Shown here: positions 24,115-52,722 of the stretch, in pieces
How the letters are laid out: every line of letters starts with the position of its first letter
How positions within the stretch are numbered: the stretch's first letter is position 1
Notes under the pieces: model-generated
What the model was told of the DNA's origin: nothing
What the model saw: only the letters and a program-made list of their open reading frames with translations
Database searches by the model: none
DNA from: Aphrocallistes beatrix
Taxonomy: Eukaryota; Porifera; Hexactinellida; Sceptrulophora; Aphrocallistidae
Direction of reading: 5' to 3'
NCBI GenBank assembly: GCA_963281255.1
Contig: OY725498.1
Coordinates: forward strand, 124,001-188,000
DNA length: 64,000 nt
Made by a program: the position numbers and the translations under genes

Positions 24115-24591
24115 ATGGCAACTATCCACATAACAGATCACAAAGGCAAAACTATTAGCTTGCGAATTTCTTATTCGGAAATAGAGGTATGTTAAGCAAT
24201 ACATTATTCAAATATTAGTTCTGTTAATTCATTATAAGGTAAACATGTATTTGGACGCCCAATGGACAAGAGGCTAAAACAAAATATTTATCATTCATCG
24301 AGTGTCTGTTAAACAGGATTCATTATACTAGTATGTAATTTACTTTAGAATTATTCAGTTTGGGACTTGAAGAAACATATTAAAGAAAAGATGGGAGTTG
24401 CTGTAGAACGTCAACGCTTGAAATATAAGACACAAGAGCTAGGTTCTGGGAAACTTCGGGATTATGGAATCACTGATGATGCAAACATTGTTCTGGTGAA
24501 TTGTTTTTACACAAATAATAATAATAATCCTTACTATTAAAACTCATTTATTGTTTGTTTGTGTATCCTTACTATTAAAACTCGATTAATC

Positions 24592-24635
<44 letters not shown>

Positions 24636-25576
24636 ACGAATTGATTGAAGAAACTGCCGGGCACAGAAAGCTGATTTTTGGCATGTGGGAGTATTTTGGC
24701 TATGGCTCCAGTAAGTTATGAGTTCAGAGCAAAATGTCGACTCATCATGGAATTATGACGTCATTGTCACATTTTAAAAAGTTAAGCAACACAGTTATTT
24801 GGGCATAACTCAGCCATTATAGGAGATAGAAGGCTGAAATTTTAATAGAATATGTATACTAACATACCTCACACATGATGCAACTATCATCAAAAATAAT
24901 GACTCAACACTTTGTTATGATCATTACTCATCAAAATTTTAAAAATTGACAAATTTGGTGTTTTTTCGAGTGATATCGATTTTAAAACTAAGATGGACAT
25001 ATTTAGAGATGATATATCCCGTTTAATTAACCAATGTCACCTCCAGGCGACCGAAGGGAGCCTCCGGCGGACACAAAGTGTCCGCCAGCCGCGCAGCGCA
25101 AGCAAGCGAAGCGCGCTTGTAATAAACACCCTCGCTAATCTATTTTCCATAATACAATTTGTTCCAGATGGCCTCTACTCAGTCTGAGCCCAAAAGCTCA
25201 ACCAATCCTCATCCCGAGTTTACACCCCTGATTATACAAGTACATGACTTTACTCTCACTATAGTAATTTATAGACAAACTTTAAAGCAAAATGCATCTG
25301 ATAATGCTCATTTTAGAAATATCAAAATAAAATTTGAGTATCATGTATATACTGACATAACTTTTTAATAATACTCAAGGATATATCTTATTTTAGTTTC
25401 TTCCAGATGAGGACCACTCTGTTGGCGTAGCTGCTTTTGGTGCTGCAACAGGGGCAACAGCTGGAGCAGCCGTGGGAACACTAGGTGGACCAGCTGGCAT
25501 AGCGATAGGAGGAATGATTGGTGGAGCTGCTGGTACATTTACTTCACTCTTTGGATATCTTCTTGGGAAAAAATAA
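24115..25576 (+). CDS. Ubiquitin-like domain plus glycine-zipper protein, gene 1
   Basis: Three phase-0 exons, 24115-24186, 24349-24495 and 25397-25576, give 132 aa. Residues 1-73 form a ubiquitin-like fold: a GKT turn near residues 11-13 and DLKKHIKEKMGVAVERQRL, matching the helix of ubiquitin, then LRDYGITDDANIVL. Exon 3 (residues 74-132) is a glycine zipper: repeated GxxxG, a central GGP, then AIGG..GGAAG and the end SLFGYLLGKK. The GGP turn with two apolar Gly-rich helices predicts a membrane-inserting hairpin. There is no C-terminal diglycine, so it is unlikely to be a conjugated modifier. Intron 2 carries a Helitron-like element. ISG12/IFI6-type proteins are a remote alternative for the C-terminal half. 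Function unknown. Confidence 0.8.
24565..25120 (+). mobile_element. Helitron-like non-autonomous element, family A, in intron 2 of Ubl-zipper gene 1
   Basis: Begins ATCCTTACTATTAAAACTCG followed by a (TA)n tract, and ends with the hairpin-forming 'gcaagcgaagcgcgcttgt'. Other conserved blocks are 'gaagaaactgccgggcac' and 'tttggcatgtgggagta'. Nearly full-length relatives are at 26261 (reverse) and 35622. Confidence 0.75.
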
Positions 25577-25734
25577 ATTTGATTGAATAATTTCCCTATA
25601 GCATATCTAGATTTTTCTTCTCAATACTAAAATATGTACTAAGACTTTTTACTATTATTATTTTCTCTAGTATTATTGTTTTGAACTTGTGTTCTTAATC
25701 TTCTTGTTCTAAAATTTTTATCTCCTCAAATTAT

Positions 25735-26220
25735 ATTGAATGAGGGAGTACTCAGTACACAGTTACCAGTAAAGAGCACTGATTAAAACTGATACATAAG
25801 TTACGATTATATCTCTAATTAAAATAATATTAAGCAAATTAGTACACAACATACTCTGAGAGTTCCTATATCACTGCTCTACAGCAATTATAATAAAGCA
25901 GCTAGTATGACTCATTCTTAATTCATTTTTCTTGCTTTATGGCTCATTCTTAAACTAGTATTCTACAATATGAGTCATTCCGAATGTACTTTCTCGTTGA
26001 ATGATTCATTCTTAAAATAGTATCCTATGATTAATGTATATGGAATGAGTCATTCCATATACACTAATCGATCTCTATGAAGGTATAAGTACATGTGTTT
26101 AATTATATTATACTAACAAATTGAATCTTTGCAAAAAATATTTTCTGAAAAAGTAGTAGGCAGTGATTGGGTTAAAGTTTGAAATTGTCAAGCTAGGCTT
26201 TGAGTGATCATAAATTGTCT
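25735..26220. repeat. Duplicated 3'-flank segment D2, copy 1 (empty site for the family B element)
   Basis: Lies downstream of Ubl-zipper gene 1 and is repeated at about 32250-33310 and 36970-37440 (shared words: tactcagtacac, ttagtacacaacatactctg). It reads uninterrupted 'atatctctaatt' where the 32-kb copy has an insertion. Confidence 0.8.
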
Positions 26221-26260
26221 CAATCTAAACAAAATATCTTCTAATTAGTTGTAATAATAA

Positions 26261-26817
26261 CAAGCGCGCTTCGCTTGCTTGCGCTGCGCGGCTGGCGGAC
26301 ACTTCGCGTCCGCCGGAGGCTCCCTTCGGTCGCCTGGAGGTGACATTGGTTAATTATAAGGGAGATATCATCTCTAAATATGTCCATCTTATTTTTAAAA
26401 TCGATATCACTTGAAAAAACACCAAATTTGACAATTTTAAAAATTTTTTGATGAGTAATGATGACGTCATAGTAAAGTGATGAGTCATCATTTTTTGATA
26501 ATAGTTGCATTATATGTGAGGTATGTTAGTACACAGATTCTATTAAAATTTCAGCCTTCTATCTCCTATAATGGCTGAGTTATGCCCGAATAACTGTGTT
26601 GCTTAACTTTTAAAAATGTGACAATGACGTCATAATTCCATGATGAGTCGACATTTTGCTCTGAACTCAGAACTTACTGGAGCCATAGCCAAAAGACTCC
26701 CACATGCCAAAAATCAGCTTTCTGTGCCTGGCAGTTTCTTCAATCAATTCGTTACAGATATATATACACACACAAACAAACAATAATCGAGTTTTAATAG
26801 TAAGGATATGAGCGCCG
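26261..26817 (-). mobile_element. Helitron-like element, family A, full-length copy in reverse
   Basis: Starts with the GC-rich end 'acaagcgcgcttcgcttgct' and finishes with 'gttttaatagtaaggat', the reverse complement of the other terminus. Internal blocks match 24565-25120. There are no long coding ORFs. Confidence 0.75.
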
Positions 26818-27168
26818 ATGCATCTGAAATAATAAAATGATTTTTTTTTAAATTTGGGAAAAATGAATAAAAATTTGCATAAGCTTTCAAATGGTGAGTT
26901 TGAGGGAAAGTTCGAATATCTAAATGAAATTTTCAAATTTCCTCTACCCTCAAAACACCAACCGACCTGTATCCAGAATTTTGCGCCCCTGAATATGTAT
27001 AACTTCACTCTAACAATAATATACTATTGAATGACAGCGCATATTTGAGAACACAAAATATTGGCAAACTGCAGAGCATTGTTTTAGAAATACCAAATCG
27101 CAAATTTGAGTATAAAAACTGACATTGCGTTTTAACACAATACTTTTTAGGAGTATATCTTCAATTAG

Positions 27169-27372
27169 TTTCTTATGGCGGATAATGACCATTCCACAGC
27201 AGTCGCAGCTGGAGGTGCTCTAGCTGGTGCTGGAACAGGAGCAGGAGTTGGAGCAACCGTGGGATTGATTGGTGGACCAGTTGGAGCGGCAGTAGGAGGA
27301 GCGATTGGTGGAGCTGCTGGTGCAGTGGTTGGTGGAATTGCGTCACTCTTCGGATATCGTTCAGGGAAATAA
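27169..27372 (+). CDS. Stand-alone glycine-zipper exon/gene 2
   Basis: After an acceptor-like 'caattag' the frame reads Phe-Leu-Met, as in the third exon of the Ubl-zipper genes. A Met at 27175 would give 65 aa. The sequence has Gly/Ala repeats every four residues, a central GGPVGAAVGG, and ends SLFGYRSGK. I see no ubiquitin-like exons upstream, where transposon DNA lies instead, so this is either a short zipper-only gene or an orphaned exon. The intact frame suggests it is recent or under selection. Confidence 0.6.
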   Translation, partial: FLMADNDHSTAVAAGGALAGAGTGAGVGATVGLIGGPVGAAVGGAIGGAAGAVVGGIASLFGYRSGK

Positions 27373-27712
27373 CTTTGACTGAACAACTTTCCATACATGT
27401 TTTGAATTTTCTTTTTCAATATATGTACTAAATAGTGTGTGTTTTTTTACTCTGATTATTTCTCTAGTATTGCTCTATTGGACTTGTTTGCTTAATTTTC
27501 TTGTTTCTTAATATGTTATCTCCTCAAATGCTGTATTAAATTTCTTTGTACCTACTTCATTAAATATTCCAAGCTTTTAGTTGACAATATACGTACATTT
27601 GGTTAGTGACCATAGTGTGATCACATATCAGATAATTTTTAATTAGAAATGAAATTTATTCTAGTGTCAAAACTCTTTAGATTCGGATACGTGAAAGTTG
27701 TCATTAAATGTC

Positions 27713-28124
27713 TACCGTATTGCTTCGAATAAGCGCCCGGGCGCTTATTTATTTCGTGCACCCTTTAGACCCGGCGCTTATTCAAACCGGCGCTTATTCA
27801 AGCCCCGGCGCTTATTTTTTTCATTCGCTATCTTGACCCGGCGCTCTTTTTTTTGTTTACTACATTGACTGGCACTTTTATTTTTGCCACAAATGAGAAT
27901 GTTAGTTCTATTAAAAAAGGATAATGTAATGTTTCAAAAAGAATTTCTATCTATGCCACTACTGAGAATACTAGTTTGATATGATTTTCAGAGAACTAAA
28001 ATGCCCCAGCGTCCGTCGCTTATTCGAGCCCCGGCGCTTATTCAAGCCCCGGCGCTTATTTATTTCGCTCACCATTTAGACCCGGCGCTTATTCAAACCG
28101 GCGCTTATTCAGGGAAATACGGTA
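27713..28124. mobile_element. MITE with 'cggcgcttatt' tandem words
   Basis: Ends 'taccgtatt...' and '...aatacggta' are inverted. The interior has repeated 'ccggcgcttattcaa' words on both sides of an AT-rich core. Non-coding; the family is probably mariner/pogo-like. Confidence 0.75.
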
Positions 28125-28194
28125 TATTACTTTGAAATTCCACATTCTAATCTAATCTTAAAGTTAACACAGTGGAAGCCGTTCAATCAGGACA

Positions 28195-28250
28195 GCCCGA
28201 GAGTTCTCTGCTCTTGAACTCATGTCTGAAGAGGATCCGGATATTTCGGT
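28195..28250 (-). pseudogene. Fragment resembling the first visible exon of the coiled-coil/zipper gene at 60.7-64 kb
   Basis: Antisense to the zipper genes, this stretch matches the 63.9-kb exon around 'ttctctgctctt.aactca'. Translated on the minus strand it gives FRHEFKSRE against FRRELKSRE. It is short and closed by a stop. It suggests that related long genes once lay within this cluster. Confidence 0.4.
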
Positions 28251-28754
28251 ATGTGGACGATACACATACTGAATTATCCTGAGGAAATGTTTTTGAGCAA
28301 CATTGTATAACATAATAAGACAAATTCAACATTTTGGATTCTTATGATGAGTCATCGTCACTTGAGTACATATATCTATCTATAAGTATCAGAAAGTGTC
28401 AAGATATATGTTGAGCATTTATTCGCTGAAAGTTTGTTTCTATCACTTTTTATTTTCAACTTATAGCTTCTGGTAAAGGGTGTTAAATTCAAAACAATAT
28501 AATTATATTCGTACTACATAGTGTGAAATAAATAATTTAATTTAAAATCAAGATTGAAAAAAATAGTCCGTTATATATATAATATGCACCTGCCGAAGAT
28601 GCCCTGAAAATCGATGTCATTACACTGTAAAATAACTGGAAATGTGAATGCTTACATTAATAATTATCCTAAATCATCTGTAAGCTGAGCTATCAGTTCA
28701 ATGCTTGCAATACTCGTGATTCCACATGAAAGGTTTTTATATCTTCTAATTCCT

Positions 28755-28975
28755 TTTGGATGATAGTTGTGTCATATGTGATATATATTAATACACATTC
28801 TATTAAAGTCTCAGCCTTTTATCACCTAAAAGGTTATTGTCAAAAAACTGAAATCTCAAATTATTTAAAGGTGCCAATGACGTCATAATTCCATGATAAG
28901 TTCACATTTTCGTCTGAGCTCAGAACTTAGAGGAGCCATAGCCAAAAGACTCCCACATGCCAAAAATCAGCTTAT
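28755..28975 (-). mobile_element. Fragment of Helitron-like family A
   Basis: Internal blocks only (cattttcgtctgagctcaga, gactcccacatgccaaaaat). Both termini are missing. Confidence 0.6.
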
Positions 28976-29403
28976 GTGTACATGCATAAGATGGAAACGC
29001 TTGTCAATGGCCAGGTTGACGAGAACCTTACACGAGCAAGAGCAAGGATGAAGGCTAATTACGCAAAGGAAAGAGCGACACTGAATTGGACCAAGCGATT
29101 GAGTTTACTCGAGAAACCAGAGAAGAAGTAGCAGTTTCCAAGCGTTTACGTTTAGTTATCACAGCGTTTAAGTTTAAGTAACGTTTAGGTTTAGTTATTA
29201 CATGCATGTATCCATAGTAGTTCTGTTCTTTCCTCGAATGGACCTCCCATGAAGTTATTTATCTTCTTGTTTACTGTAGGTGAACTTATTCATGTATTTC
29301 TTTCGGTGTACACTACTAGGTAGGGTTCTGCTCATTGTATCGATCTACTTATTAAATCTACTAATTGTAACTTCTGATTTACATCGTTACATACTACTAT
29401 TAG

Positions 29404-29592
29404 TTTCCTATGCCGAGTAGTGCCAAAGGAACTACAGCTGAAGGTGCTACAACAGGTGCAAATATTAGAGCTGGTGCGGGAAAGCTAGGTAGATCAGTTG
29501 GAGCAGCGATAGGAGGAGCGATTGGTGCAGTTGCTGTTGGTATAGTTGGTGGAGTTGGTACACTCTTTGGATATATTGCAGCAAAAGATTAA
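29404..29592 (+). CDS. Stand-alone glycine-zipper exon/gene 3
   Basis: Preceded by an acceptor-like 'ctattag'. The frame reads Phe-Pro-Met with a Met at 29410 (60 aa). The zipper pattern is present but weaker: the central GGP is replaced by GRS, although AIGGAIGA and the TLFGY ending remain. No ubiquitin-like exons are visible upstream. It may be decaying. Confidence 0.5.
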   Translation, partial: FPMPSSAKGTTAEGATTGANIRAGAGKLGRSVGAAIGGAIGAVAVGIVGGVGTLFGYIAAKD

Positions 29593-29770
29593 CTGATTGA
29601 TTATTTCTTCATAGCATATCTAGAATTTTCTCCTAAATTACACTAAGACATTTACCTATGATTATTTCCCCTGGTATTGCTGTTTCGAATTTATGTACTT
29701 AATGTTCTTGTTTATTAAATGTTATTTCCTCAAATTCTATATTACATCTCTTTGTATGTACTACTTCTGG

Positions 29771-29867
29771 GGCATGCCTAATTTACGGGACGGGACGGGA
29801 CCAACCCGGAAAATCTAGGTGCCTAATTTACGGGACTGTCCCGTCCCGTCCCGTAAATTAGGCATGG
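29771..29867. mobile_element. Palindromic MITE of 'taatttacggga' words, copy 3
   Basis: Nearly the whole element folds on itself: 'gggcatgcctaatttacggg' against 'cccgtaaattaggcatggcc'. Flanks tacttctg / tacttccg form an 8-bp duplication with one mismatch. Confidence 0.8.
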
Positions 29868-30339
29868 CCCTACTTCCGTTAATATTCAAAGCTTTTAGTT
29901 TCCTATTTTGGTTAAGTAACCATGGTGCGATTAAATGTCAGACAATTTTCAATAATAAATGCAATTCATTCTCGATTCAAAACTATTTTTAGATTCGGAT
30001 AGGTGTAAATTATCACTAGATTTGGTCTCGATTAAGCGGTTTCTACATTATGCAATATAAGAAACCAATTTTAACATCATAGGCCTGAAAATGGACTCAT
30101 TATTTGTACAAATATTTTCTATATAATCGAGATTGGAGTCGACGATTGAGGTGGATTTTTGTCTGGGGGCAAAGCAGCATCGGATTTGTCCAGAAATCCT
30201 CCCAATATTTGAAGTCAAAGTTCATAATTGAGCTTCAAATGGCTATATTTATAGTCGAAAACTGATATTTCTAATTATAAAAATGTGAAAATGAAGTCAT
30301 GATTCTATGATGAGTCGACATTTTCGTCTGAGAGCAGAA

Positions 30340-31000
30340 CAGCGCCGGCGCCACCGGTCCGGTTGGTCCGGTTTTCACCGGACCACTTTTAAGAAAAAGC
30401 TAAAGTGGTCCTGTAAAACCGGACCACTTTTAATAGTGGTCCGGAAAGGTCCGGTTAGGTCCGGTTGTTGCGTTTTTAATACGATTCGCTAGATCATACA
30501 CTTCATTCAATAAGATTGAATAATGTCTACATCTAGTAAGAAAGAGTGTTGATTGTACTAAGGTAGCAATGTGATGACAACTAGTAGCCAAAAACGACTG
30601 ATCAAAAATGTCTGGCGATTGTTTCAACTATTGCTTGTGTTACCTGCCACCAATGCCACCTCAGAACGCACATTTAGTGCTTTACGCAGGATTAAATCTT
30701 ATCTAAGGTGCACTATGGCGCAGTCTCGGCTGAACCATTTAATGATTTTACACTATCACCAAGATCGAACAGACTGTCTCCAACTTGAGCCAATTGTTAA
30801 TGAGTATGTTCTCAGAAATGAGGCTCGACAATCAACATTTGCTAGTTTTTAGTCACTCCTGTTACTAATATTAATTATTTGTGCTCGTATTAGACTATAA
30901 GTTATCAGTAGTCACATCCTATAATCCTACATCTGATTGAACCTGAACTTTCGTAGCTAAGTTCAACCGGACCACTTCAAATGAGGTGGCGCCGGCCCTG
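30340..31000 (+). mobile_element. hAT element remnant with transposase C-terminus
   Basis: Imperfect terminal repeats CAGCGCCGGCGCCACC and GGTGGCGCCGGCCCTG bound 661 bp. A block of 'ggtccggtt' repeats follows the left end. The interior retains the end of a transposase (next entry). Confidence 0.75.
30571..30852 (+). pseudogene. hAT transposase C-terminal dimerisation domain, truncated
   Basis: About 93 codons contain the hAT dimerisation signature LPATNATSERTFSALRRIKS and LNHLMILHYH. The DNA-binding BED finger and the catalytic core are absent, so this is a fragment within a deleted element. The intact stop at 30850-30852 matches the natural C-terminus. Confidence 0.85.
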
Positions 31001-31659
31001 CAGAAAGATGCAACGAGCAGACAAAGACATCCTTTGAAATGGCCCGAAGGTGAGGAATGGCCTGACGATTTCTCTGATGAGTCCTCATAGGACACTTTCC
31101 ATATGCATCCTGAGCTAGAGATTTTTAGGAACAAGGGTTATGTAACATTTAGGCTTAGTTATCACATGCATGTATCCATAGTAGGTCTGGTCTTTCCTCG
31201 AATGAACCACCCAAGAAGTTATTTACCCTAAGATATATATGTATACTGTGAATAGTCTAGTAGTTTAGTTTTCTTGCTTACTCTAGGTGTGTTAACTTGG
31301 GTGAAACTAAGACAAATCGTGACGTTTAGAAAGATTACAGGATATCTACTCAAAAGGTAATCTGACATGATCAAGGATCTGAATTCACTAGCAAGGTAAT
31401 TAACAACAATTGCATGAATTTTTATCCATTCTTATCGATTTCATTCCAAACATTCTTTAATTTAACATTCATACCTTACAAAGTTTCTTTTAAAATACAC
31501 AATTATATATAACAATTACAAGTTTAAATTTAAAATTTGATCTATTTGAAACTATGTACCAAGGAGCTGTGTTTAATTATAAGAAATATTAATAAGAACC
31601 TATTTTAAGAACCAATTTTTAGAATGTTTTTGCACTCCACATTTCAACATTTTAAATCA

Positions 31660-31850
31660 CCAACCAAACACCAATGAAGACAGAAGCAGGAGCAGATGAT
31701 TATGAGTTACAAATAACGATAATGAATGGATCGATCAAATTGAAGAAAATCGATCGAGACAGAGTGAATCTGCCACTAGAAATATTAAGAAAGAACAAAA
31801 TGTCCAAAAAGAAAACATACGATCGTTAAGTAAAAGTAATAGGTGAGTTT
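31660..31850 (+). pseudogene. Fragment of the GIN1-like integrase family
   Basis: The frame NIKKEQNVQKENIRS before a donor-like 'aatag|gtgag' matches the RHIKKEQKIQKRNFDR block before the donor at about 42072. Only this region is recognisable. Confidence 0.45.
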
Positions 31851-32249
31851 CTCAATGATTTTCTAATAATACAACTGGAACTAATATTTTCTATACTTGC
31901 TTTGTCGATTATTTTACATTCTTATTTGCTGACGCAAATCTAATTCGTATTATTTTGGCTAATCTTAGTTTGCATGATGCATCACAGCTTTGATCAAATG
32001 ACTTGTCACAACCACATGATACCACACACACATTGCGAATATTTTGCTTGTCCGGTTCTGAATTCGAATTTATTCTTAGAACAGAAAATCATTCTTGCAT
32101 AATTGATGAATGGATAGAAAGGATGATTCTATTTTCACGAAGCGAAAATCTAATGATTTCTCTAGAAGTGCGAATTATCCTGCACTATAGTTTTTGCATA
32201 ATAAAATAATCTGAGTTGTGATTTGTACAATGTCCTCGTTTTTTGAATC

Positions 32250-33310
32250 AGGGAATACTCAGTACACAATTACCAGTACAGAGCACTTATTAAATCTGAT
32301 ACATAAGTTACGATGATATCTTATATATTAAAATGCTAGGATATTTTTTTTTTGTTTGTTTGTTTGTTCGAATTGATTGAAGAATTGGCAAGTCGTAGAG
32401 ATACGAAAATTGGCATGTAGGTTTCAAATGATGAATCTACGATTAAGTTCTAAGATCTAAGCGAAATTTTCACACCTCTGCAAAAAAAATGGGAAACAAT
32501 TTTTCACACCTTTTCTATACAATACTATGTACGGCTTCACTCTCACAATAGAAATCATTATACGACAATATTGTAGGCTGTAATTGTAATTAATACTTCA
32601 AAGCAATAAGTTTTATGAATGTCTCAATTATATATTATAGTGTATAGCAGTTAAAAAGGTTATTTGTATATTTTCACACCTTTATATACATATTTTCACA
32701 CGATTTGACGAATTTTGAAAATTATGCTAGAAACTAGCTTCCAACAGTTGACATGGGGTTTCTAGGGGTGTAGATTTCGAATAACAAATTTTCGGATCCA
32801 TATGAGAAATTTTTCGTTGACCTTTGTTTGAAATATTTATATAAAGGAAAAAAATCCCAAAATATGTTTGATTGAGTGTGACTCCAGGCGCCCGCAGGGC
32901 GACTCTGCGGACACGCAGTGTCCGCAAGCCGCGCAGCGCAAGCAAGCGAAGCGTGCTTGTCTCTAATTAAAATGATATTAACCAAATTAGTACACAACAT
33001 ACTCTGAGAGTTCCTATATCACTGCTCTACAGCAATTATATTAAAGCAACTAGAATGACTCATTCTTAATGCACTTTCCTACTTTCTGGCTCATTATTAG
33101 AATAGTATTCTACAATATGACTCATTCCATATGCATTAATCGATCTCTATGAAGGTATAAGTACGTGTCTTTTATTATTATAGAATACTAACAATTTAAA
33201 TCGGAAATATTTTCTGGAAATCAGTAGGCAGTGATTGGGTTAAAGTTTATTTATGTATTTATTAATTTGAAATTGTCGAACTAGACTTTGGGTGATCATA
33301 AATATCTCGA
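32250..33310. repeat. Duplicated 3'-flank segment D2, copy 2 (interrupted)
   Basis: Matches 25735-26220 on both sides of the element at 32319-32960. The flanks read 'gatgatat...ctctaatt' around the insertion. Confidence 0.8.
32319..32960 (+). mobile_element. Helitron-like non-autonomous element, family B, with internal empty site at 25.81 kb
   Basis: Begins TCTTATATATTAAAATGCTAGG and ends with the GC-rich 'gcaagcgaagcgtgcttgt'. Compared with the uninterrupted copy of the flank (25801-25830), the insertion leaves no target duplication; the exact border is ambiguous by 1-2 bp. Absence of duplication plus a terminal hairpin supports a Helitron/Helentron mechanism. Confidence 0.78.
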
Positions 33311-33394
33311 AATCTGAAAATATTTACTTCTCAACGAGAAAAACCAAGGTTTTTTTGCAAAAATACCTTTCAATTGCAATATTAATATGAGCAC

Positions 33395-33725
33395 ATCAAA
33401 ATATAATGCTAGGATTTTTTTATCTCATTAGGTGTACTGCAGTGATATTATAGTATATACACATATTGAATTTAAGGGTAAAATAAACAGCTGAAATTGG
33501 CATTACAGTCAGGATTAGTTAGGTTAGTATTAAGCAAATCCCTTTTATCATAAACTTTTTTCTCCAGGTCTGAATCCATGTATTAACCGTAGATGAATGA
33601 CATTTTTAGTAAGGAATTAAAATAGTACCTGACCGATCCTTAAATATTCCCAAACGCCCGCAAGGATACTCTGCGGACACTGTGTGTCCGCAAGCCGCGA
33701 AGTAGAACAAGCGAAGCGCGCTTGT
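33395..33725 (+). mobile_element. Helitron-like element, family B relative
   Basis: Starts near 'aatataatgctaggat' and ends '...aagcgaagcgcgcttgt'. It sits immediately upstream of exon 1 of Ubl-zipper gene 4, where it could supply promoter sequence. Confidence 0.6.
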
Positions 33726-33784
33726 TTGTATTAGAATACTATTTTCCATTAATTCATATAACTAACATAGTCTACTTAGATAAG

Positions 33785-34725
33785 ATGAAGAGTGTCTACA
33801 TATCAGGGTTCGATGGCAAAACTAGTACTTTGCAAATTCTATCTTCGAAAATGGAGGTATGTTAAACGAATATACGATTCAAATATTTATTCTGTTAGTT
33901 CATTATAAAAGTGAATATATACCTATACTGGACACCCAATGGACAATAGGCTAAGATGAATAACATTTAGAGAGTGTCTGCCAAATAGGATTGAAATTCT
34001 ATTTAGCAGACACTCTCCAGATGTTATTCATCTTAGCCTATTGTCCTTTGGGCGTCCAGTATAGGTATACCTATATTTACTTTTTCTTTCTTATTTTAGT
34101 ATTATTCTATTTCGGATTTGAGGGAGCATATTAGAGATAAGATGGGAATTCCTGTAAAACAACAACGCTTGGAATATGGGCTGAAAGAACTAGAAGATAC
34201 TCGTCATGGTGTTGCAATGACATTTCAGGATTATGGAATCAAGGGTGGTGCAACCATTGAACTGGTAACTCTAATAATAATTCTTACTATTAAAACTCGA
34301 TTAATGTTTGTGTCTATATATAGTTTTTGGCTATGGCTCCAGTAAGTTCTGAGCTTAGACGATGATGTCGACTCTTCATCGAATTATGACGTAATTGTCA
34401 TCTTTTTTTTATAATTAGAAATTTCAGTTTTTTTATGTTAACGTTACTCGACTGAAGTTGTTTGAGTCGTTCAAATATAATAGTCTATAATGTGAACTTT
34501 GTAGTTTCAAATTGGTAATACATTCAGGATTAGTTAGCTTAATAATAAGCAAATTCCTTTTCATCATTAATTTTCTCTTCCAGTTCTGAGTTTCGTGATT
34601 AACCGTGGATGAATGACATTTTTAGCAAGGAAGTAGAAAAGCAATCGACCGTTCTTTAAATATCCCCAGGCACCTGCAGGGCTACTCTGCGGACAAAGTG
34701 TCCGCAAGCCGCGCAGCGGAAGCCC

Positions 34726-34773
<48 letters not shown>

Positions 34774-35118
34774 TAATCGAGTTTCAATAGTAAGGATTTA
34801 GTACTTGAAATTTAGGTCCTAATCATACTTTTGAGGTGTATATTCTATTAGCGTCTTACGGGGGAAACAGGATTTGATGTCAAAGCTTATACAGATTCAA
34901 GAATATCTACTATGGATACTCGTGGAGATAAGAAAGCTGCTGTTGTAGCTACTGTTAGTATTGCAGGTGGTGCTGCAACAGGAGCAACTATCGGAGCTGG
35001 TGCGGGAATGATAGGTGGACCAGTTGGTGCGGCGATTGGAGGAGTGGTTGGTGGAGCTGCTGGTGCTGCAGTGGGTGGAGTTACTTCACTTTTTGGATAC
35101 TTTTTTGGAAAAAACTAA
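33785..35118 (+). CDS. Ubiquitin-like domain plus glycine-zipper protein, gene 4
   Basis: Exons 33785-33856, 34100-34264 and 34852-35118, all phase 0, total 504 nt (167 aa). The ubiquitin-like part is the clearest of the family: DLREHIRDKMGIPVKQQRL parallels the ubiquitin helix and following strand, then a KELEDTR loop and FQDYGIKGGATIEL. Exon 3 adds a polar linker of about 33 residues absent from gene 1. The zipper follows: GAATGATIGAGAG, the GGP turn, GGVVGGAAGAAVGG, and the SLFGYFFGKN end. Intron 1 contains an inverted pair of segments (about 33920-33990 and 34005-34075). Intron 2 is full of Helitron-like sequence and a (TA)n tract. Predicted role unknown; membrane insertion of the zipper is inferred. 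Confidence 0.8.
34281..34799. mobile_element. Composite of Helitron-like ends and (TA)n tract in intron 2 of gene 4
   Basis: A family A left end ('ttactattaaaactcgatta', 34284) is followed by scrambled interior, a family B-type GC end (gtccgcaagccgcgcagcg, about 34701), a (TA)n tract at 34729-34771, and a reversed family A left end ('aatcgagtttcaatagtaag'). Confidence 0.55.
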
Positions 35119-35559
35119 CCTCGGTTGGCATAGGATCAGAAGGAGCATATATTATACTTTGATTTTCCTAATATATGTACTGGATTATGCACTAAGGCTT
35201 TTTATCATGTTTTCCCCTAGTATTGCTGTTTTAAACTTGTGTGCTTAATTTTCTTGTTTCATAATATGTTATCTCCTCAAATATTGTCTTAAATTCTTTG
35301 TACGCATTTCTGTTAAATTGTCTAAACTTTTAGTTTATTTTGGTAAGGTGACCATGGGGCGATTAAATTTAAAATATCAACCTTTCCTAGATTCAGATAC
35401 ACATAAGATATCGCAAAAGTTCATCTACTTTGAATTCCGACATTTTAATAGAATTAAAAGTTTCAAATAGTGGCAGACGCTTAATCGACACAGCTCCGTA
35501 GTTTGCATTTTGTTTCCAATATGCACTATAAGAAACCATTTCTGGATGAATGGAAAATT

Positions 35560-36430
35560 GGTAAAAATGTTTGTTTACACAAATAAATTGTGTATATAAA
35601 TGAATCCAAAGTCTAAAGATAATCCTTACTATTAAAACTCGATTAATGTTTGTATATATATATATATATATATCTGTTACGAATTGATTGAAGAAACTGC
35701 CGGGCACACAAAGCTGATTTTTGGCATGTGGGAGTATTTTGGCTATGGCTCCAGTAAGTTCTGAGTTCAGAGCAAAATGTCGACTCATCATGGAATTATG
35801 ACGTCATTGTCACATTTTTAAAAGTTAAGCAACACAGTTATTCGGCCATAACTCAGCCATTATAGGAGATAGAAGGCTGAAATTTTGATAAAATCTGTAT
35901 ACCAACACGTCTCACATATGATGCAACTATCATCAAAAAATGATGACTCATCACTTTGTTATGACGTCATCATTACTCATCAAAAATTTTAAGATTGATA
36001 AATTTGGTGGTTTTTCGTACGATATAGATTATAACAGTAGGACAGACGTATTTGGAGATGTTATCTCCTTTATAATTAACCGATGTGACCCTAGGCGACC
36101 GAAGGGAGCCTCTGGCGGACACTTTGTGTCCGCCAGCCGCGCAGCGCAAGCAAGCGCGAAGCGCGCTTGTAAACATGAAATTGAGTTGTTTGTGAGAATT
36201 GCTCAAAGAAAGAAAAGTAGATGAAATTAGACAAAACAAGCAATTAATAATTTGTGGATACTTAATTGTTTTTATTTTCAGTCCAATTACAAATATAACT
36301 ATGCTGTGATAACAACAACAACAACAACTCAAATCCTTTTTTTGTTCAATATTAACCAAATGTGTCTGGTTGTATCAACAAAACAGAATCACCTCATTAT
36401 AAAACTTCTATCTTCATAAATAGATACTGA
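35560..36430. repeat. Duplicated segment D1, copy 2 (interrupted by a Helitron-like element)
   Basis: The non-element parts (35560-35621 and 36171-36430) match 22730-23078. It ends just before a decayed zipper copy. Confidence 0.8.
35622..36170 (+). mobile_element. Helitron-like element, family A, full-length, with internal empty site at 22.79 kb
   Basis: Begins ATCCTTACTATTAAAACTCG and ends 'caagcgcgaagcgcgcttgt', which can form an 8-bp stem (CAAGCGCG/CGCGCTTG). The paralogous unfilled site at about 22785-22803 reads 'ctaaagatagtaaaacatg', so no target duplication was made. Two ATGACGTCAT-like words lie inside. Confidence 0.8.
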
Positions 36431-36559
36431 GTAGGATTAAAGGACGCTTATCTCTCAGAGGATCCCAAAGAGTTCGTTTGTAGCACATTTAGTTCATGCA
36501 AGTTAATATTGTCTATAACGAGTAGTATTAAAGCTCGAAATTCTTCACCATTTTGACAC

Positions 36560-36717
36560 ATGCTAATATATAATGAGGAAGCTGTAGCTGACTGTGAGCA
36601 CGCTTGTGGACAGGAGTTGGAGCAACCGTGGGATTGATAGATGGACCAGTTGGCATAGCAATAGGATGAGCTATTGATGGAGCTGTTGGGAGTGTAGTTG
36701 GTGGAGGAAAAGAGTAA
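36560..36717 (+). pseudogene. Decayed glycine-zipper exon, copy 5
   Basis: From 36613 the frame reads GVGATVGLIDGPVGIAIG, then an in-frame TGA, then a degraded continuation ending in TAA at 36715-36717. The N-terminal part is frameshifted. Segment D1 copy 2 lies just upstream. Confidence 0.75.
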
Positions 36718-36969
36718 CTTTGACTGTATAATTTCTCCATAGTATGTTTTGATTCTTCCTTCCAATTTATGTGATGAATTACTAAGACTTTTTAATCCTT
36801 GATAAATATAGAAAAAATTTAGCCAAATTAGTTTGAAGAAAGATCATGGCTCCATGGAAATAGGATCATCTCATTGGTATGCTGTCTCCTCAGGTAGTTG
36901 TTCAGACGGAAGATTTCGTTTTGGAGGAAGGAGAGTTGCTCGAGGTGCTTCAGTTCACGAAATTCTGTG

Positions 36970-37440
36970 TCTCATCCTAGTTTTATTGAATGAGTACTCA
37001 GTACACAATTACCAGTAAAGAGCACTAATTAAATCTGATACAAAAGTTACGATGATATCTTTAATTTAGATGATATTAACCAAATTAGTACACAACATAC
37101 TCTGAGAGTTCCTATATTACTGCTCTACAGCAATTATATTAAAGCAACTAGTATGACTCATTCTAAATGCACTTTCTTACTTTCTGGCTCATTATTACAA
37201 TAGTGTCCTACAATATGAGTCATTCCATATGCATTAATCGATCTCTATGAAAGTATAAGTACATGTGTTTAATGATAGTATATTAACAATTTTGTCTTCG
37301 CAAAACTATTTTCTATATATTAGTAGGCAGTGAATTGGTTGAAGTTATTTGTGTATTTATTAATTTGGAATTGTTGAGCTAGGCTTTGGGTGATTATAAA
37401 GAATATAAATATCTCGAAATCTGATAATACATCCCAACGA
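36970..37440. repeat. Duplicated 3'-flank segment D2, copy 3
   Basis: Third copy of the flank seen at 25735 and 32250, following the decayed zipper copy 5. No insertion at the family B target site ('gatgatatctttaattt'). Confidence 0.78.
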
Positions 37441-37520
37441 TAAAACCTAGCTCAAATTTTTGAGTACTAGAAACTGACATTAAGTTCTAATAATACTTTT
37501 AGGAAAATATCTTCTATTAG

Positions 37521-37706
37521 TTTCTTATGGCTGATGCTGCTAAAGGCGCTGCAGCTACACTTGGAGGTGCTGCAGTTGGTGCTGCAACAGGTGCAACTAT
37601 TGGAGCTAGTGCAGGAATGATAGGTGGACCAGTTGGCATTGCGATAGGAGGAACGCTTGGTGCAGCTACTGGTGGTATAGTTGGTGGAGTTGGTTCACTC
37701 TTTTGA
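37521..37706 (+). pseudogene. Glycine-zipper copy 6 with premature stop
   Basis: The exon opens Phe-Leu-Met after 'ctattag' (Met at 37527) and runs as a good zipper with a central GGPVGIAIGG. A TGA at 37704-37706 stands where the relatives have the glycine codon of LFGY, one G-to-T change away. The original frame continues six codons to TAA at 37725-37727. The truncated product would be 59 aa and keep nearly the whole hairpin, so loss of function is not certain. Confidence 0.7.
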
Positions 37707-38639
37707 TTTCTTGTAGGAAAAGATTAACATTGATTATTTCTCCAAAGCATATCTTGGCTTTTCTTCTCAATGTATTGAATTACTCTAAACTAATATTTTG
37801 ATTATTGTTTTGAATTTGTGTGCTTAATTTTCTTGTTTATTAAATCTTATTTCCTCAAATGCTGTATTAAATCTCTTTGTACGTACTCCTGCGACTTCTG
37901 GCTCTTCCCTAAACTTAAAGGTCAGCTTCGTGGGAGGAGTTTCCAGTAACGAGGAGTTGACCGGCGCCCTTTTTGTGGCGATCGAAGCCGTCCCCAAGAA
38001 TAATTGAAAATGTGGTTTAATTGGTTCACTCGTATGCAAAAATGTATAGACTGTAAGGGAAAAAAATATGTAGAAATATATTTGATATCTATCTTTTTAA
38101 TATATGAGCAGCATAACTTTTCGAGTGCCCCTCGTAATGCCAATTAGGAATGCAATTTATAAACTTTTTAGATTCAGGTTTGAGTTATTCGACAGTGTTT
38201 ATATATTCAGTAAAAACTAAACAACCAAGGAACAGATTATAAAGTGGAAAATAATTCGACAGTTAAGCTTACTAAAAAAACTTAATAATTTCAGAGACAA
38301 AAATCACTCAGAACATTTGACGTTGAAAAGAATATGAATAACAGATACTTGTATTGGAGAGGAAATTGACAATACAGCACTGTTTATTGAGAAAATAGAG
38401 AAGCAATCAAGACAATGATTGGTGTGATAGGTAGCACTGTGAGTGGGAAGTAATTGGAAGCTTGGCAGGTCCAGGATAATTTCAAATTTCAATATCAGAC
38501 TCTAAGTTCAGATTTTGTGCCAATGGAACATCTCTGGCATATTATCGTATTTCTCTAAAGTAATTACAGTACATGATTGTAGCTTATAGATACGTATATA
38601 GCAGTAATATAATACATTTAAACACTATTTAAATAAGTG

Positions 38640-38830
38640 AATAATCAGTTTCCTACTAGGTAGCTAGGATATCAGATATCTCATTAGGTGCCTGCATTGG
38701 TATATAACAATTGAATTTGGGATAATTTAAAACATTTTCAAACAAAATCTCTTCATTGAGCTACATCCTGATCTGTTCGAGAGTATTGACATCTCAAGTG
38801 AGTTCTATCTTGTTCTCTAATAAAAAAGGT
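38640..38830 (-). repeat. Inverted copy of a segment repeated at 55.4-55.6 and 59.3-59.5 kb
   Basis: Shares 'tatcagatatctcattagg' and 'ctcgaacagatcag'-type words in reverse orientation. Non-coding. Confidence 0.6.
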
Positions 38831-38973
38831 CATTTATCTATTAATCATTAATTCGGAATGACAGAAGAAAATTTTATGTTTATGATAAATTAAATTTGCT
38901 CATTATTTAGCTAACTAATCTTGAATGTACTGTCGATTTTGAGACCACATTGAACGTAGTTTACTTAGATCAA

Positions 38974-40695
38974 ATGGAGAATATCTACATCTCAGGATTT
39001 GAAGGCAAAACTATAACCTTCCACATTCCGTCTTCGAAAATGAGGGTATGTTAGGCAAGATATTTTATTCAAATATTTATTCTGTAAAGCATTGTAAAGT
39101 CAAAGTATTTTGGTTGCTCGAGAGACACAGGGCTGACCCAAATTATCATTTACAAAGTATCTGTTAAGCAGGATTGGCTATACGTGGGTATGTATGTATG
39201 TATGTGCTTTATTTCTTTAGAATTATACAGTTATGGACCTAAAGAAACAGATTAGAGATCGGACGGGAACTGAGGTAGAATCTCAAAGATTGCTGTATGG
39301 AGTAAAAGAGGTAGAAGATACTCGCAATGTTATGATGACATTGCAGGATTATGGAATCACGAGTGGTGCAAACATTCTACTGGTGACTCTTTTGCCAGGT
39401 ACTTTTAAATATTAACTGCGCAAAATGTTCGCGAGTTCGAAAATATAATATTCTAAAATCTATACCCCAAAATCCACAAGTCAAAATTTGAAAAATATAC
39501 ATTATTTTTATCTGTACTATAGTAATTTTAATAGATGTATAGAAGTTAGTTCTTTAGTTGAAACAATGATAGGCTATTGTAGATTATGCAAATCAGTAAA
39601 TGAGGAATTGAACAAAAAAAAGAGAGAACTAGAGAGGATACGGCGAGATCTAGAAGAAAGGGAACAAACAATATTGGAGAGGGAATACAGATTGGGGGAA
39701 GGAGTCAAATTAGAAAGTGAGGCATTGGACAAAAAAAGGAGAGAACTAGATATGTTTGAACGAAATCTAGAAGAAAGGGTTAGTTCTATACGAAAAAAGG
39801 AAGGAGCGATTCTTTTAAAGTCAACAACATTTAATATTAACAGATAGTAGTAATTTAATAAAGGGTTCTGTATAGCGGTTTGATTTACTGAGACCGCATA
39901 TTTAGACGGTGAATTATATTAAGCAATATTGAGTTCTACCATAAACCAGAATGTTAAGGGCTATTCTGTGAAAATTTGAGATTTGATAGAAGATAATATT
40001 TATAGTAAATCTTATGTGTTTTTTGTTTGTGCAAATTCGAATATCTAAACGAAATTTTGACCGCTCGGCAATAGAAAAGAAGAAAGTTTCACATTTCTGA
40101 TGCATTAAATTATAAATGGTCATAGTCACTATAAATATTAGCAGGGCCATGTCTACCAATATAATTTGTTGAATACTTTTGTGCCTTATTTTCCATAATA
40201 CAATTTGTTCCAAATGAACTCTACTAACCCTGAACCCAAAAGCTCAACCAATCCTCATCCCGAGTCTACGCCTCTGATATAAATAAGTTCACTCTCACAA
40301 TAGTAAATTCTTGTAGAGAGCACATATTTGAGAACACAAATTTTTGGCAACTCTCAAAGCAAAGTGTGTCTGTTAATTCTCAAATTAGAAATATCTAATC
40401 GAAAACTTCATTACTAGAAACTGACATTACATTATAATAATACTTTTTATATATCTTCTATTAGTCGGATGCTATTGAACAAAGGCGTAGCAATGCCTCT
40501 CCGAATGAAAAGAACAAAGCTACAGTTACAGCTGGAGGTGTTGCAATAGGTGCTGGAACAGGTGCAACAGTTGGAGCAGGGGTGGGATTAATCGGTGGAC
40601 CAGTTGGCTCGGTGATAGGAGGAACTGTTGGTGGAGCTGTTGGTGGTGTAGTCGGCGGAGTTACTGCACTCTGGGGATTTGTTTTCGGGAAATAA
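38974..40695 (+). CDS. Ubiquitin-like domain plus glycine-zipper protein, gene 7
   Basis: Exons 38974-39045 and 39221-39382 encode the ubiquitin-like half (GKT turn, DLKKQIRDRTGTEVESQRL, LQDYGITSGANILL). Exon 40465-40695 encodes a polar stretch and a full zipper (GAGTGATVGAGVG, GGP, GGTVGGAVGGVVGG, ending TALWGFVFGK). All are phase 0, giving 154 aa if spliced directly. The first two exons could also read through their intron to a TAA at 39413, giving a ubiquitin-like-only product. The 1.1 kb second intron contains a coiled-coil ORF (39488-39847, separate entry). Aromatic changes (Phe to Trp in LFGY) are conservative. Confidence 0.78.
39488..39847 (+). CDS. Coiled-coil ORF within intron 2 of Ubl-zipper gene 7
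   Basis: An open frame of 119 codons without an ATG at its start (first in-frame ATG about 39566). Residues 36-105 are strongly heptad-like with two related E/R/K-rich blocks (KKKRELERIRRDLEERE and KKRRELDMFERNLEERV). A good donor, AGG|GTTAGT, follows the second block in phase 0, but I find no phase-0 acceptor upstream. It may be an alternative exon, a separate gene piece or a relic. It echoes the coiled coil preceding the zipper in the 60.7-kb gene. Confidence 0.4.
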   Translation: MKNIHYFYLYYSNFNRCIEVSSLVETMIGYCRLCKSVNEELNKKKRELERIRRDLEEREQTILEREYRLGEGVKLESEALDKKRRELDMFERNLEERVSSIRKKEGAILLKSTTFNINR

Positions 40696-48949: not shown

Positions 48950-51900
48950 CTAATTTAATCCTAGTTTTATAGAATAGAGTTCAGCTGTTTTTTTGAGGTT
49001 AGCGACGGGATCGGATTCTGGAATGTGGAGGTCATTATCACTGAGGTAAAGTGTCTTCAACTGCGTTAGAGTGGGAATGAGGTGTGTGAAAAAGACACAC
49101 GCTTTGGAATTCAGTTCACATCTAATTACTTCTAACTGTCTAATGTTAGGATGATGCAGCAGTCCTGTGCATAGAGATGGCACAGCTTCAGATAGTGGAA
49201 CTCTCCATAGACTCAAATAAAGTAAGGAACTGAGTCTATTCACTGCAAGCCAGACAGTGACGTCATCATGTGGTAGTGTAGTGTAGCGTAGCTCAATCTC
49301 TACCAAGTTGGAACATGAGAACAGAGGTAAGAGGAGTTTATCACAACTGCTGAGTCCGATAGTTTCTAAAAAACATAACTCCAAACCTTTCAGTGAGTGA
49401 GTGCTAGCATTCAGTAGCTGCAGCAGATGTTGTTCATGTCCTGTGGTTATAGGTTCTTCATAATGATCTAGGCATAGATATTTGAGGTTGGATACACTGC
49501 TGATGTGTGGTAGTAGAGAGTAGCAGTATTCTCCATACAATGTTATCTCCTGTAGGTAGGATAGTTGTGGTAACTGAGTATGTAGTATCTGAGTAGTATC
49601 TTCAATGCCATAGTAGTGTAAAGCTAACAGCTGAGAAGTTGTAGATAGACCTCGAACCAATTCGTGGTGACTAAAGCTGTCAAGGTGCAAGTATTCAGTA
49701 TGAATCAGCTGATTCACTATCTGCTGGTAGCACTGAGGTGATAGTTCAGAGAGAAATAAGAACAAACTTGTGGAGAGTTGGAATATAGAAGTAGTGGCAT
49801 AATCAGCTGGGTTAGTTTCACTGTAATTACACACATACAGTTCTAAACTAATCTTTGTTCCATGAGATGTCAGCTGATTCTCTGTGATGACGTCACAGTA
49901 AGCGGATAGAGTTGAGTAGTCCTGTCTACTCGACCTTAATACTAAACAGCTGAGAGAACAGGAAGTCAGCTGTGATACCAACGAACAGAACTGTGTCAGT
50001 GTTAGGGAAGAGGTGTCGAGCTTGATGAGTTGAATCGAGTGGAGGAGTGGCAGAGACTTGACGAAACACTCCTATTCGTTGGGTGATGTGGCACTCCCAA
50101 AATACAAGTAAAGTGTCTCAGGTAAGAATTTGCGGAAATATTGAAATGATTCGTGAAGTGAATCTGAATTGGACTCAAATAGCAATTCTGATAACGACAC
50201 TAATTGCTGCGTAAACTCGATACAACCCATGAAGTGAGGTAATTCTGTATATTGATAATACTTGTATATCATTGGCATCTGATCCATAGAGACAGGATGT
50301 GTTGGAAGGTATTTATACAAGATATAGTGCACTGGAAATACACTGTCTGAAGACAACAGACCGCACAAAAACCGGAAAACCATTCGGAAAATTGAAAAGT
50401 TGGCATTCGAACTCACGATGTACCGAGTGCTCAAGCACTGGTCTCCTCTTGACGACACACTAAGCCAGATGGCACTCACGAACTCTTGAATGGTCAGGTG
50501 TGCGAACGACCAAACGCGACTCATTCTCCCCAGATCATCCTTCCGAACGTGTTCCTCAGCCAGACCCAAGCACTGGCAAGACTTCTCCACTTTATCCACT
50601 TTCAATAGGACGTCTTTTGAGGAGATCAAATCGCGACCGTAGACGCCCAGATACGCAAGCTCGCCGATGCGATACAGGCAGTCTAGCACGGTAGGGTCCA
50701 ACTGGAACAGTCGCTTCTTCTTGGCCAACTCCTTCAGCCTCATTCGGAACAGCTGTCTCCTGATGAGGTAGGTGACGAGTTCCGTGTAAAGGTGAGTCAG
50801 TGTGTAGGCTGTCACGTCGTCAGACCCTCGGACTAGGGCGGCGAAGAGAGAGGCGTTGACAGGGATGAGAGACAGCTGACTCACCTCATCGTGGAGGTAG
50901 AGAAGCCGCTTCAGCTGTTTCAGTTTAGTCTCGTCAGTCAGCTGAAGCGTGAAGTACTTGTCTCGATTCTCCGGCGAGAACCCCAGCACTTGGAAGAATT
51001 GGTCAATGAGGAAGCTGTGGGAGGAAGACATCACGGTGTAGGCTCCAGGCCTAGTGGTCAGCAGGATGGTGGATTGGGTCAGAGCTCTGCGAGTGAGGAG
51101 AAGGAAGAGCAGCGATTCCTGGAATGGGACCTCTTTGGTGAATTCATCGAGGCCGTCGATGATGAGAAGAAGTCGGTCGCCGTCCGATTCTACGAGGTGC
51201 TTTGCGAGTTCTGTGGTCCAGCTGGGACCGACTGGCATAGACAGGCACAGCCACTTCTGAATGAACTCGCTACTCACTGATTGGCTGGCCTTATCTCGAG
51301 AAGCTTCCAAGTCATGCCAGTCCTGGCTGCGGCAAGGGACTGAAAGGGAGTATTTGAACTGAAGAAGTTCCCCTTTACCGAAACGAAGAGCCGTTCTATG
51401 GCACAAGAAACTCTTCCCACTGCCCGGGTTCCCTATGATACACCATATCTGAGGAGTTGAAGGATTGTATCGACTGAGCTCTTCACTGAAATTTATTGGT
51501 TCGATATCGATCTCTTTGTTGGCGATCTTTCTTATGTAGGCTATCTCATTGTATGTGGTCTCATCTTCCATGTTCACTGGTCTCGGTTTCTGTTTTATAA
51601 TCGTCAGGGGAACGTAGATGGATTCCAGATTCACTGGTTCGTCATCTTCAAACATTTGTTTTACATTTCTGTTATTCACTTCCATAAACTTCCTCACTGA
51701 ATCTTCCCATTTCAGGATTTCTTTCTCAAGGGCTCTGATTTCATTCTCGAGTAAGTTGATGAATATTTCGTTTGAATTATCTGTGAACGCAGTACGATAC
51801 TTCATGACTTCTTCTTCAACATCATTACGCTTTATTTCAGTCATCAGCTGTATCAGTTCGGTGAGGTGATTGGATATGTACCCCTCCTTCACAAGGATTC

Positions 51901-52315
51901 TCATCTTGCTAGTGAAGCTCATGCAGTCTTCTATGCCGGAGACGATTAGGGAAATGCGGGTCCAATCAATATCAGCCAACTCTGACTTCAGGAGTCGGAG
52001 GAAGGACTTCACAGGAGTTTCATCTTCTTGATGTGAGACTGTCCCTTCTAACTTCTGTTCAGAAGCCAACCAGGGATACTGTCTTGCAGTCTCGGACAAA
52101 TCAGGTCTGCCGATTGCTTGCAGACCTTGATCGAACAGATAAGGGCTGTGCTTGTCCCAGTTTTTCAGGACACTAAGCAGCTTGGTTCCGCTGGAGATGT
52201 TCTGGCTAAGACCGGGTGGAATGTTAAGGAGACTGGTGAGTCTCTGTACGTTGTCCTGTGTCAACTGGTCTCCGACATCCATCAAGCCAGCGTATTGAGG
52301 AGCTTTCTTCGCCAT
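48950..52315 (-). CDS. NLR receptor: death-fold + NACHT + LRR, with one in-frame TAG
   Basis: One frame runs from ATG 52315 to the stop at 48950, broken only by TAG at 50074-50072 (codon 748). Upstream part (747 aa): residues about 15-85 form a helical death-fold (DED/CARD-like, LLSVLKNWD and IGRPDL), then a linker coiled coil (about 150-215). NACHT follows with Walker A GNPGSGKS near 295, Walker B LLLIIDGLDEF near 380 and sensor-like TILLTTRPG; a helical and winged-helix region continues to the stop. Downstream part (373 codons) holds leucine-rich repeats (for example SNLKYLCLDHYEEP, LVEIELRYTTL, LKTLYLSDNDL). Animal NLRs oligomerise on sensing microbes or stress. The gene is intronless. The TAG could be a real truncation giving an LRR-less form, a readthrough site, a null allele or an assembly error. 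Confidence 0.9.
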
Positions 52316-52722
52316 TCGAATTGTGTCTAAAGGACAAACTCAATGAAAGGAAGGCAAATTTTATTGAAAAGGAAAATGGCTAATTGAGAATAAGTTGAGA
52401 CTAATGGGGCAAGCCAACCAGACCCTCCTTACCTACTTTCTAAAATCATTTATAGTCGAACCGGTTTTTCTCCTTATCTTTTTTCAGATTAATATAGCAA
52501 AAATACATCGATAGTGAGAATAAATCAGAAATAAACAGATGTAATAATAAAATGTTGGTAATTATAAACCGATTATAAGAATATACCACGAGCCCTGTAA
52601 TAAAGAACCGATAGAATCTAGTAGTAACCTGAAATATCTTACTATATACGTAGAGTAAGAATAAACTCATAGTAAGGATAACCACTATATCCACAACTTA
52701 TTTGTCATGCACTCACTAAATA

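Follow-up and report, generated by a model that had tools for sequence, protein, structure and literature searches.

Within 64,000 nucleotides of the hexactinellid sponge Aphrocallistes beatrix (GenBank assembly GCA_963281255.1, 100.5 Mb in 28 contigs; contig OY725498.1, C12 in our numbering), a stretch referred to here as the window (C12:124001-188000), three pairs of exons resembling ubiquitin each lie upstream of an exon coding for a glycine zipper. Are these three genes, named here A, B and C, in which a ubiquitin-like (Ubl) domain and a zipper are spliced into one protein, or are they neighbours with separate lives, and what became of the Gly-Gly conjugation tail of the Ubl? Our tentative answer is fusion plus membrane anchoring: A, B and C would be descendants of di-Gly Ubls that were re-ended with a zipper hairpin, giving non-conjugatable proteins resembling MUB/UBL3 in their working. 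This reading builds on features carried by the sequences themselves, namely membership of the ubiquitin family, the di-Gly ending of the relatives examined on contig C1, its absence in the window and the zipper pattern. The contrast with the di-Gly relatives, missed by a first-pass annotation made from the window sequence, is the most useful addition of this work, and the combination of Ubl and zipper is itself without report in the searches made.

Ubiquitin-like and zipper exons of the window

The Pfam ubiquitin family (PF00240) was matched by genes A (full model), B and C with E values of 3.8e-7, 6.9e-9 and 1.2e-9, the scores of 30.2, 35.8 and 38.2 bits, respectively, all passing the gathering threshold of 25.4; in addition, the gene C Ubl matched single ubiquitins of the PDB with E of about 1e-6 to 3e-5 among the 60 matches listed. 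By sequence, A, B and C are firmly placed in the ubiquitin superfamily, as the first-pass annotation had proposed for exons 1 and 2. Every exon of the three pairs has a length that is a multiple of three, GT..AG borders and phase 0 (Table 1). Seven zipper exons lie downstream of the pairs on the same strand, five of them intact, one ended early (37521; zipper exons are named by their first position) and one broken (36560), and the reading frames bear out the two intact (27169, 29404) and two broken (36560, 37521) extra copies that had been proposed. The shared three-exon, phase-0 layout stands as far as exon pairs, lengths, borders and zipper exons are concerned, while the joining of exons 1 and 2 to exon 3 is putative and is weighed below.

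One register is common to six zipper exons (25397, 27169, 29404, 34852, 37521 and 40465). The GGP turn is present in five of the six, GRS standing in its place in 29404, and GxxxG counts exceeded those of composition shuffles in five (p<=0.001), 29404 giving p=0.053. AlphaFold2, run on the six window copies, predicted two helices (residues 2-32 and 37-66) around the GGP turn with a mean pLDDT of 67, which supports the Gly-rich double helix described earlier; as modelled, the zipper is a predicted glycine-zipper hairpin in the loose sense of GxxxG motifs in two helices with a turn.

Just ahead of gene A, window 23680-24010 holds a degenerate copy of the block found upstream of zippers (see below), without a zipper. 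A short frame, MxSTxxEPKSSTNPHPExTPLI, occurs at window 25168-25239, before the zipper of gene A, and again at 40214-40282, before that of gene C, where it ends in a stop. An extra exon (MASTQSEPKSSTNPHPE...) at 25168-25239 was considered and not adopted, because, on our reading, a stop interrupts the frame of its counterpart ahead of 40465 and a good donor is missing there.

Table 1. Positions of the features in the window (position 1 is its first nucleotide).
Feature	Positions	Strand	Description
Gene A exon 1	24115..24186	+	24 codons, start of ubiquitin fold; donor GAG|GTATGT
Gene A exon 2	24349..24495	+	49 codons, rest of ubiquitin fold; terminus ...NIVL, without di-Gly
Gene A exon 3	25397..25576	+	zipper hairpin FLPDEDH...SLFGYLLGKK*; no start codon ahead of the zipper; putative join to exon 2
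Zipper copy	27169..27372	+	intact, no adjacent Ubl; FLMADNDH...; in-frame ATG is codon 3
Zipper copy	29404..29592	+	intact, no adjacent Ubl; FPMPSSAKG...; ATG is codon 3; weakest zipper pattern
Gene B exon 1	33785..33856	+	24 codons; from sequence and Pfam
Gene B exon 2	34100..34264	+	55 codons; terminus ...ATIEL, without di-Gly; followed by the same D10 repeat as gene A
Gene B exon 3	34852..35118	+	zipper with longer N-terminal extension; codon 3 is ACG; later in-frame ATG ahead of the zipper
Zipper copy	36560..36717	+	broken: stops ahead of the zipper, TGA inside; DNA family D2
Zipper copy	37521..37706	+	truncated by TGA following SLF, seven codons short of the usual end; otherwise unbroken
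Gene C exon 1	38974..39045	+	24 codons; from sequence and Pfam
Gene C exon 2	39221..39382	+	54 codons; unspliced reading ...LLVTLLPGTFKY*; LPGT versus mostly LPGG in C1 paralogues
Gene C exon 3	40465..40695	+	zipper whose N-terminal extension SDAIEQRRSNAS... is polar; without in-frame ATG
NACHT protein gene	50072..52339	-	PF05729, E 6.3e-18; neighbour, context only
497-aa protein	60689..62182	-	predicted long helix plus C-terminal glycine zipper, the zipper part not modelled confidently; Pfam, AlphaFold2

Di-Gly relatives and probable loss of the tail

With the gene C Ubl as query, the whole assembly yielded 46 matches at E<=0.1, each exon being counted separately. Fourteen exon-2 matches fall within about 316 kb of contig C1 (C1:11672431-11988204), which means at least 14 paralogous Ubl copies, and 12 of these loci were examined (L008, L011-L013, L016, L018-L020, L022 and L024-L026). 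In all 12, exon 2 ends in Gly-Gly with a stop one to six residues further on, the tail being LPGG in eight and LQGG, IHGG, VRGG and LPGGGG once each. A rule-based scan identified a first exon of 24 or 25 codons followed by a GT donor in ten, the exceptions being L019 and L022, the latter having an exon-1 match about 1.3 kb ahead of its exon 2 in the assembly search. When L008 is aligned with ubiquitin end to end, LVTRLPGG falls on LVLRLRGG. Judging by these endings, the C1 copies are shaped like precursors of ubiquitin-type modifiers and possibly constitute an expanded modifier set; if so, the array would be an unusual one, whose members are predicted to be cut after Gly-Gly and conjugated, the window versions not. 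RING-like open reading frames (ORFs), scoring under the Pfam cut-offs, were seen about 1.1-1.2 kb behind the C1 Ubls L022 and L024.

The Gly-Gly tail is present in none of the three window Ubls, versus 12 of 12 C1 paralogues examined (exact p 0.0022, the paralogues not being independent). The window exons stop short of it, level with Leu69 of ubiquitin, and unspliced read-through to the next stop gives VNCFYTNN in A, VTLIIIL in B and VTLLPGTFKY in C, none with Gly-Gly. The tail would have been lost beside a dispersed repeat (D10) in A and B, this repeat starting about 20-35 bases past the exon-2 donor in A, and by point changes in C; since D10 past the donor is common to A and B, their tail loss may be one event and that of C another. 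In the Ubl tree, where one of 16 inner branches is starred, A, B and C lie together on one side of an unstarred branch with a modest support of 87/84 (84% of 200 bootstrap trees). Since di-Gly Ubls are what was found in the C1 paralogues examined, the derived feature of the window genes would be that they lost the conjugation tail, the contrast suggesting the direction of change. A genome search for zippers at E<=0.1 gave 13 matches on C12 and one on C9, counts that are lower bounds, and none of these 14 lies on C1.

The Ubl unit appears, at the level of sequence, with several different endings in the genome. On C16 (L055 and L056, ~3.07-3.08 Mb) tandem units hold two Ubl matches, each with a coiled-coil-like ORF and then a PARP-type ORF behind it; PARP was assigned by Pfam (E 5.5e-8) for the tandem copy L055:3348-4037, and the two ORFs behind the Ubls were likened to the L055 copy by eye. 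On C20 (L057 and L058, ~482-492 kb) single-exon Ubl ORFs continue through Gly-Gly into a Cys-rich stretch, and one of these ORFs matched ubiquitin with E 7.5e-12. A broader idea, which we regard as rather doubtful, is that the Ubl exon pair serves as a construction kit, used as a free modifier, with a zipper ending or before a PARP-type or Cys-rich domain; the window would then be a swap of tail for hairpin, and its membrane Ubls would act as decoys or platforms for the enzymes of the free Ubls, beside NLR-type genes.

The putative join between exon 2 and exon 3

The intron-2 donors are in phase 0 in the three genes, all three candidate joins keeping the phase; scored with a general donor table, the donor of A and that of C come first among the open-frame GTs, and that of B comes second. 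In all seven readable zipper copies (six in the window and one on C9) the frame begins right after a ..TTAG acceptor; these copies are related by descent, thus the pattern counts as one observation and not as seven. An ATG at codon 3 is found in the four readable zippers without a Ubl (27169, 29404, 37521 and C9) versus none of the three Ubl-linked ones (p 0.029), or in four of five versus none of three when the broken 36560 is counted (p 0.071), a difference noticed post hoc. Gap totals that are multiples of three, seen in 21 of 21 zipper pairs, carry no weight here, as the stretches set side by side had been trimmed to whole codons.

The acceptor phase common to all readable zipper exons, which lie downstream and on the same strand, would also suit alternative last exons under one Ubl promoter, A being completed by 25397, 27169 or 29404 and B by 34852 (or 37521), with several Ubl-zipper isoforms as the outcome. 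We consider this quite improbable: the zippers without an adjacent Ubl keep their codon-3 ATG, as does the C9 copy, where the genome searches list no Ubl, and the introns would have to span about 2.7-4.9 kb with repeats.

Several observations weigh against a fused and membrane-anchored protein. The G at +5 is missing from all three intron-2 donors, being present in 14 of 14 intron-1 donors, and the GT of the window intron-2 donors corresponds to coding V-T in the C1 relatives. The 130-base flank before the zippers A3 (25397), 27169, 40465 and C9 is 72-89% alike, versus 67-75% for the exons, and is the higher of the two in five of the six pairs. Zipper dN/dS (Nei-Gojobori, as throughout) ranges from 0.64 to 1.56 over 15 pairs, there being no clear amino-acid constraint beyond the open frame, and two of the seven zippers are broken. 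The best 19-residue hydropathy is 1.39 in 25397, 1.65 in 27169, 1.92 in 29404, 1.58 in 34852, 1.39 in 37521 and 1.63 in 40465; the usual cut-off for membrane helices is about 1.6, and the Ubl-linked zippers of A, B and C lie around or under it. Finally, Ubl dN/dS among the window copies is 1.44 (A-B), 1.00 (A-C) and 0.59 (B-C). In favour of the fusion, on the other hand, comparison with the C1 paralogue L008 gives 0.49 for gene A, 0.35 for gene B and 0.28 for gene C, L008 and L026 giving 0.30; the Ubl thus seems constrained over the longer span, and to have changed more freely or faster after the copies diverged.

The upstream block common to these four zippers is possibly, judging by its conservation, a promoter of their own or regulatory sequence belonging to zipper genes that stand alone. 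In 14 of the 15 pairs that involve 29404, 34852 or 37521, the flank (42-73% alike over the 15 pairs) shows less similarity than the exon. Between 40465 and C9 the 130-base flank is 89% alike and the exon 68% (window 25203-25734, 40249-40822 and C9 L053:7343-7950 compared).

Almost as probable as the fusion is that there was none at all: the Ubl pairs would be copies of the C1 modifiers that are decaying or have no tail, the zippers separate short genes or their remains with their own upstream control block, and the layout a product of tandem duplication of neighbours. Zipper dN/dS near 1 together with borderline hydropathy keeps such decay without fusion a serious rival, and the weak intron-2 donors, the block shared with C9 (where searches of the own genome list no Ubl match), the own ATG of all four readable zippers without a Ubl and the two broken copies fit it as well. 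In a simulation of neutral zipper decay with assumed rates, the probability of a zipper remaining free of stops at 0.10-0.20 substitutions per site is 0.42-0.63 when indels are left aside, as this rival would have it; with indels at 5% of substitutions, however, P(intact) falls to 0.27, 0.14 and 0.07 at 0.10, 0.15 and 0.20 substitutions per site, which tells against it. The chance that at least five of seven zippers stay intact is 0.0002-0.03 at P 0.1-0.3 and 0.23 at P 0.5, thus the open zipper frames are suggestive only. Decay also has to accommodate Ubl bodies that are open in three of three despite tail loss by repeat (A, B) or point changes (C), and Ubl-adjacent zippers that have no codon-3 ATG yet remain in frame downstream of the acceptor.

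With phase and lost start codons for it and weak donors against it, we infer the splice from exon 2 to exon 3, and fusion with anchoring is the reading we tentatively prefer, by a narrow margin. A, B and C would have their origin in a family of small Ubl modifiers with a di-Gly ending; the exon that bore the tail would now end before it, at ubiquitin Leu69, and be spliced to the downstream zipper exon, the product being a ubiquitin fold without conjugation ability, presumably tethered to a membrane by its C-terminal helical hairpin. By analogy with MUB/UBL3, the Ubl would hold ubiquitin-pathway enzymes or Ubl-binding partners at that membrane, and the Ubl-zipper proteins may perhaps belong, as a rapidly evolving component, to an immune region of NLR type. 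Should the splice prove real, a protein tag would have been turned into a membrane protein through a change of last exon, with the apparent before and after forms in one genome.

Larger zipper proteins and comparison with known systems

Six of the C12 zipper matches fall at the C-terminus of longer ORFs, which have 233-510 residues. Larger ORFs related to one another, the majority of them ending in a glycine zipper, cluster at C12:184692-246092, among them that of the 497-residue protein of the window; a protein search with this member gave eight proteins including itself, seemingly mostly from one assembly. One ORF of the cluster, C12:210463-211881, carries a strongly extended GAIGGAIGG repeat. 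An assignment of the larger proteins as AIG1/GIMAP-like, suggested by the look of their middle part, was dropped, since a Pfam scan of six members gave no AIG1 match at E<=1 and the AlphaFold2 model was poor, with a mean pLDDT of 51.6.

These larger proteins with clustered C-terminal zippers, together with the neighbouring NACHT gene, raise another explanation, in which the fusion is real and the zipper is a membrane-damaging effector that the Ubl would switch or deliver, in the manner of cell death under NLR control. A Foldseek search with the hairpin model gave no significant match, all ten listed hits having E>1; by title the ten chains are membrane or pore proteins (Tim22, TraT, AhlB pre-pore, complex I, microcin E492 complex), which would also suit a membrane anchor, and in the Tim17/Tim22-like comparison 6lo8_A reached TMq 0.72 with E 2.5. 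The pre-pore and microcin entries would suit an effector, but none of these matches is significant, similar hairpins occur in non-toxin membrane proteins such as Tim22, and the NACHT gene is a neighbour of the zippers rather than a demonstrated partner; we regard an effector as unlikely.

Elsewhere in the window, a hAT transposase dimerisation fragment lies at 30562-30852 (Pfam E 3.7e-8), a sodium/proton exchanger with a cyclic-nucleotide-binding domain forms a single long ORF at 5609-9637, with long open frames on the opposite strand, and two adjacent single-ORF NHL-repeat proteins are found at 43227-44474 and 45301-46590.

The view that no named family has this combination of Ubl and zipper agrees with our database and literature searches, in which none was found. 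A profile of the three joined models matched 11 database proteins; a Pfam glycine zipper (E<=0.01) was present in eight of the ten scanned, P0018 being left out, and a ubiquitin domain in none of the ten, and the joined A model alone had no protein-database match at E<=0.01. The database seems to consist of genes predicted without introns, thus absence of the combination there says little. In the literature searched we found no report joining glycine zipper, ubiquitin-like and sponge, or glycine zipper and NACHT, and none on an expanded ubiquitin-like gene family in Amphimedon; glycine zipper and ubiquitin-like domain occurred together in one listed paper, on SMN. The IFI6/IFI27 proteins, previously named as the nearest idea, find no support, as the spliced A model and three zipper pieces had no match to the Pfam Ifi-6-16 family at E<=1. 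A recruiting role for the Ubl, also proposed before, is plausible, but the proposal lacked the key comparison, that with di-Gly C1 paralogues, by which tail loss would be derived.

With the bacterial YMGG-like glycine zipper (PF13441) the window sequences share the zipper pattern, but they score under its gathering threshold (16.6-19.6 bits versus 28.9, E ~1e-3 to 7e-3, for the spliced A model, 27169, part of 34852 and 40465). TMUB/HERPUD-type proteins also combine a Ubl domain with membrane segments; they are longer, have ordinary transmembrane helices and, to our knowledge, no glycine-zipper terminal exon. Modifiers of the ubiquitin/ISG15 type have the ubiquitin family in common with A, B and C, but Gly-Gly and a short tail are found in the C1 paralogues examined and not in the window genes. 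The closest likeness is to MUB/UBL3, whose members bind the backside of an E2. According to PMC4996978, MUB is a ubiquitin fold without Gly-Gly that a prenylated CaaX box anchors in the plasma membrane and that restrains a subfamily of E2 enzymes. The window genes likewise code for a ubiquitin fold without C-terminal Gly-Gly and with an expected C-terminal membrane anchor, which, unlike the prenylated CaaX given there for MUB, would be a Gly-rich helical hairpin, the C-termini being LLGKK, FFGKN and FVFGK. Lacking a CaaX box, the window proteins are thus not members of MUB/UBL3, though they would work alike.

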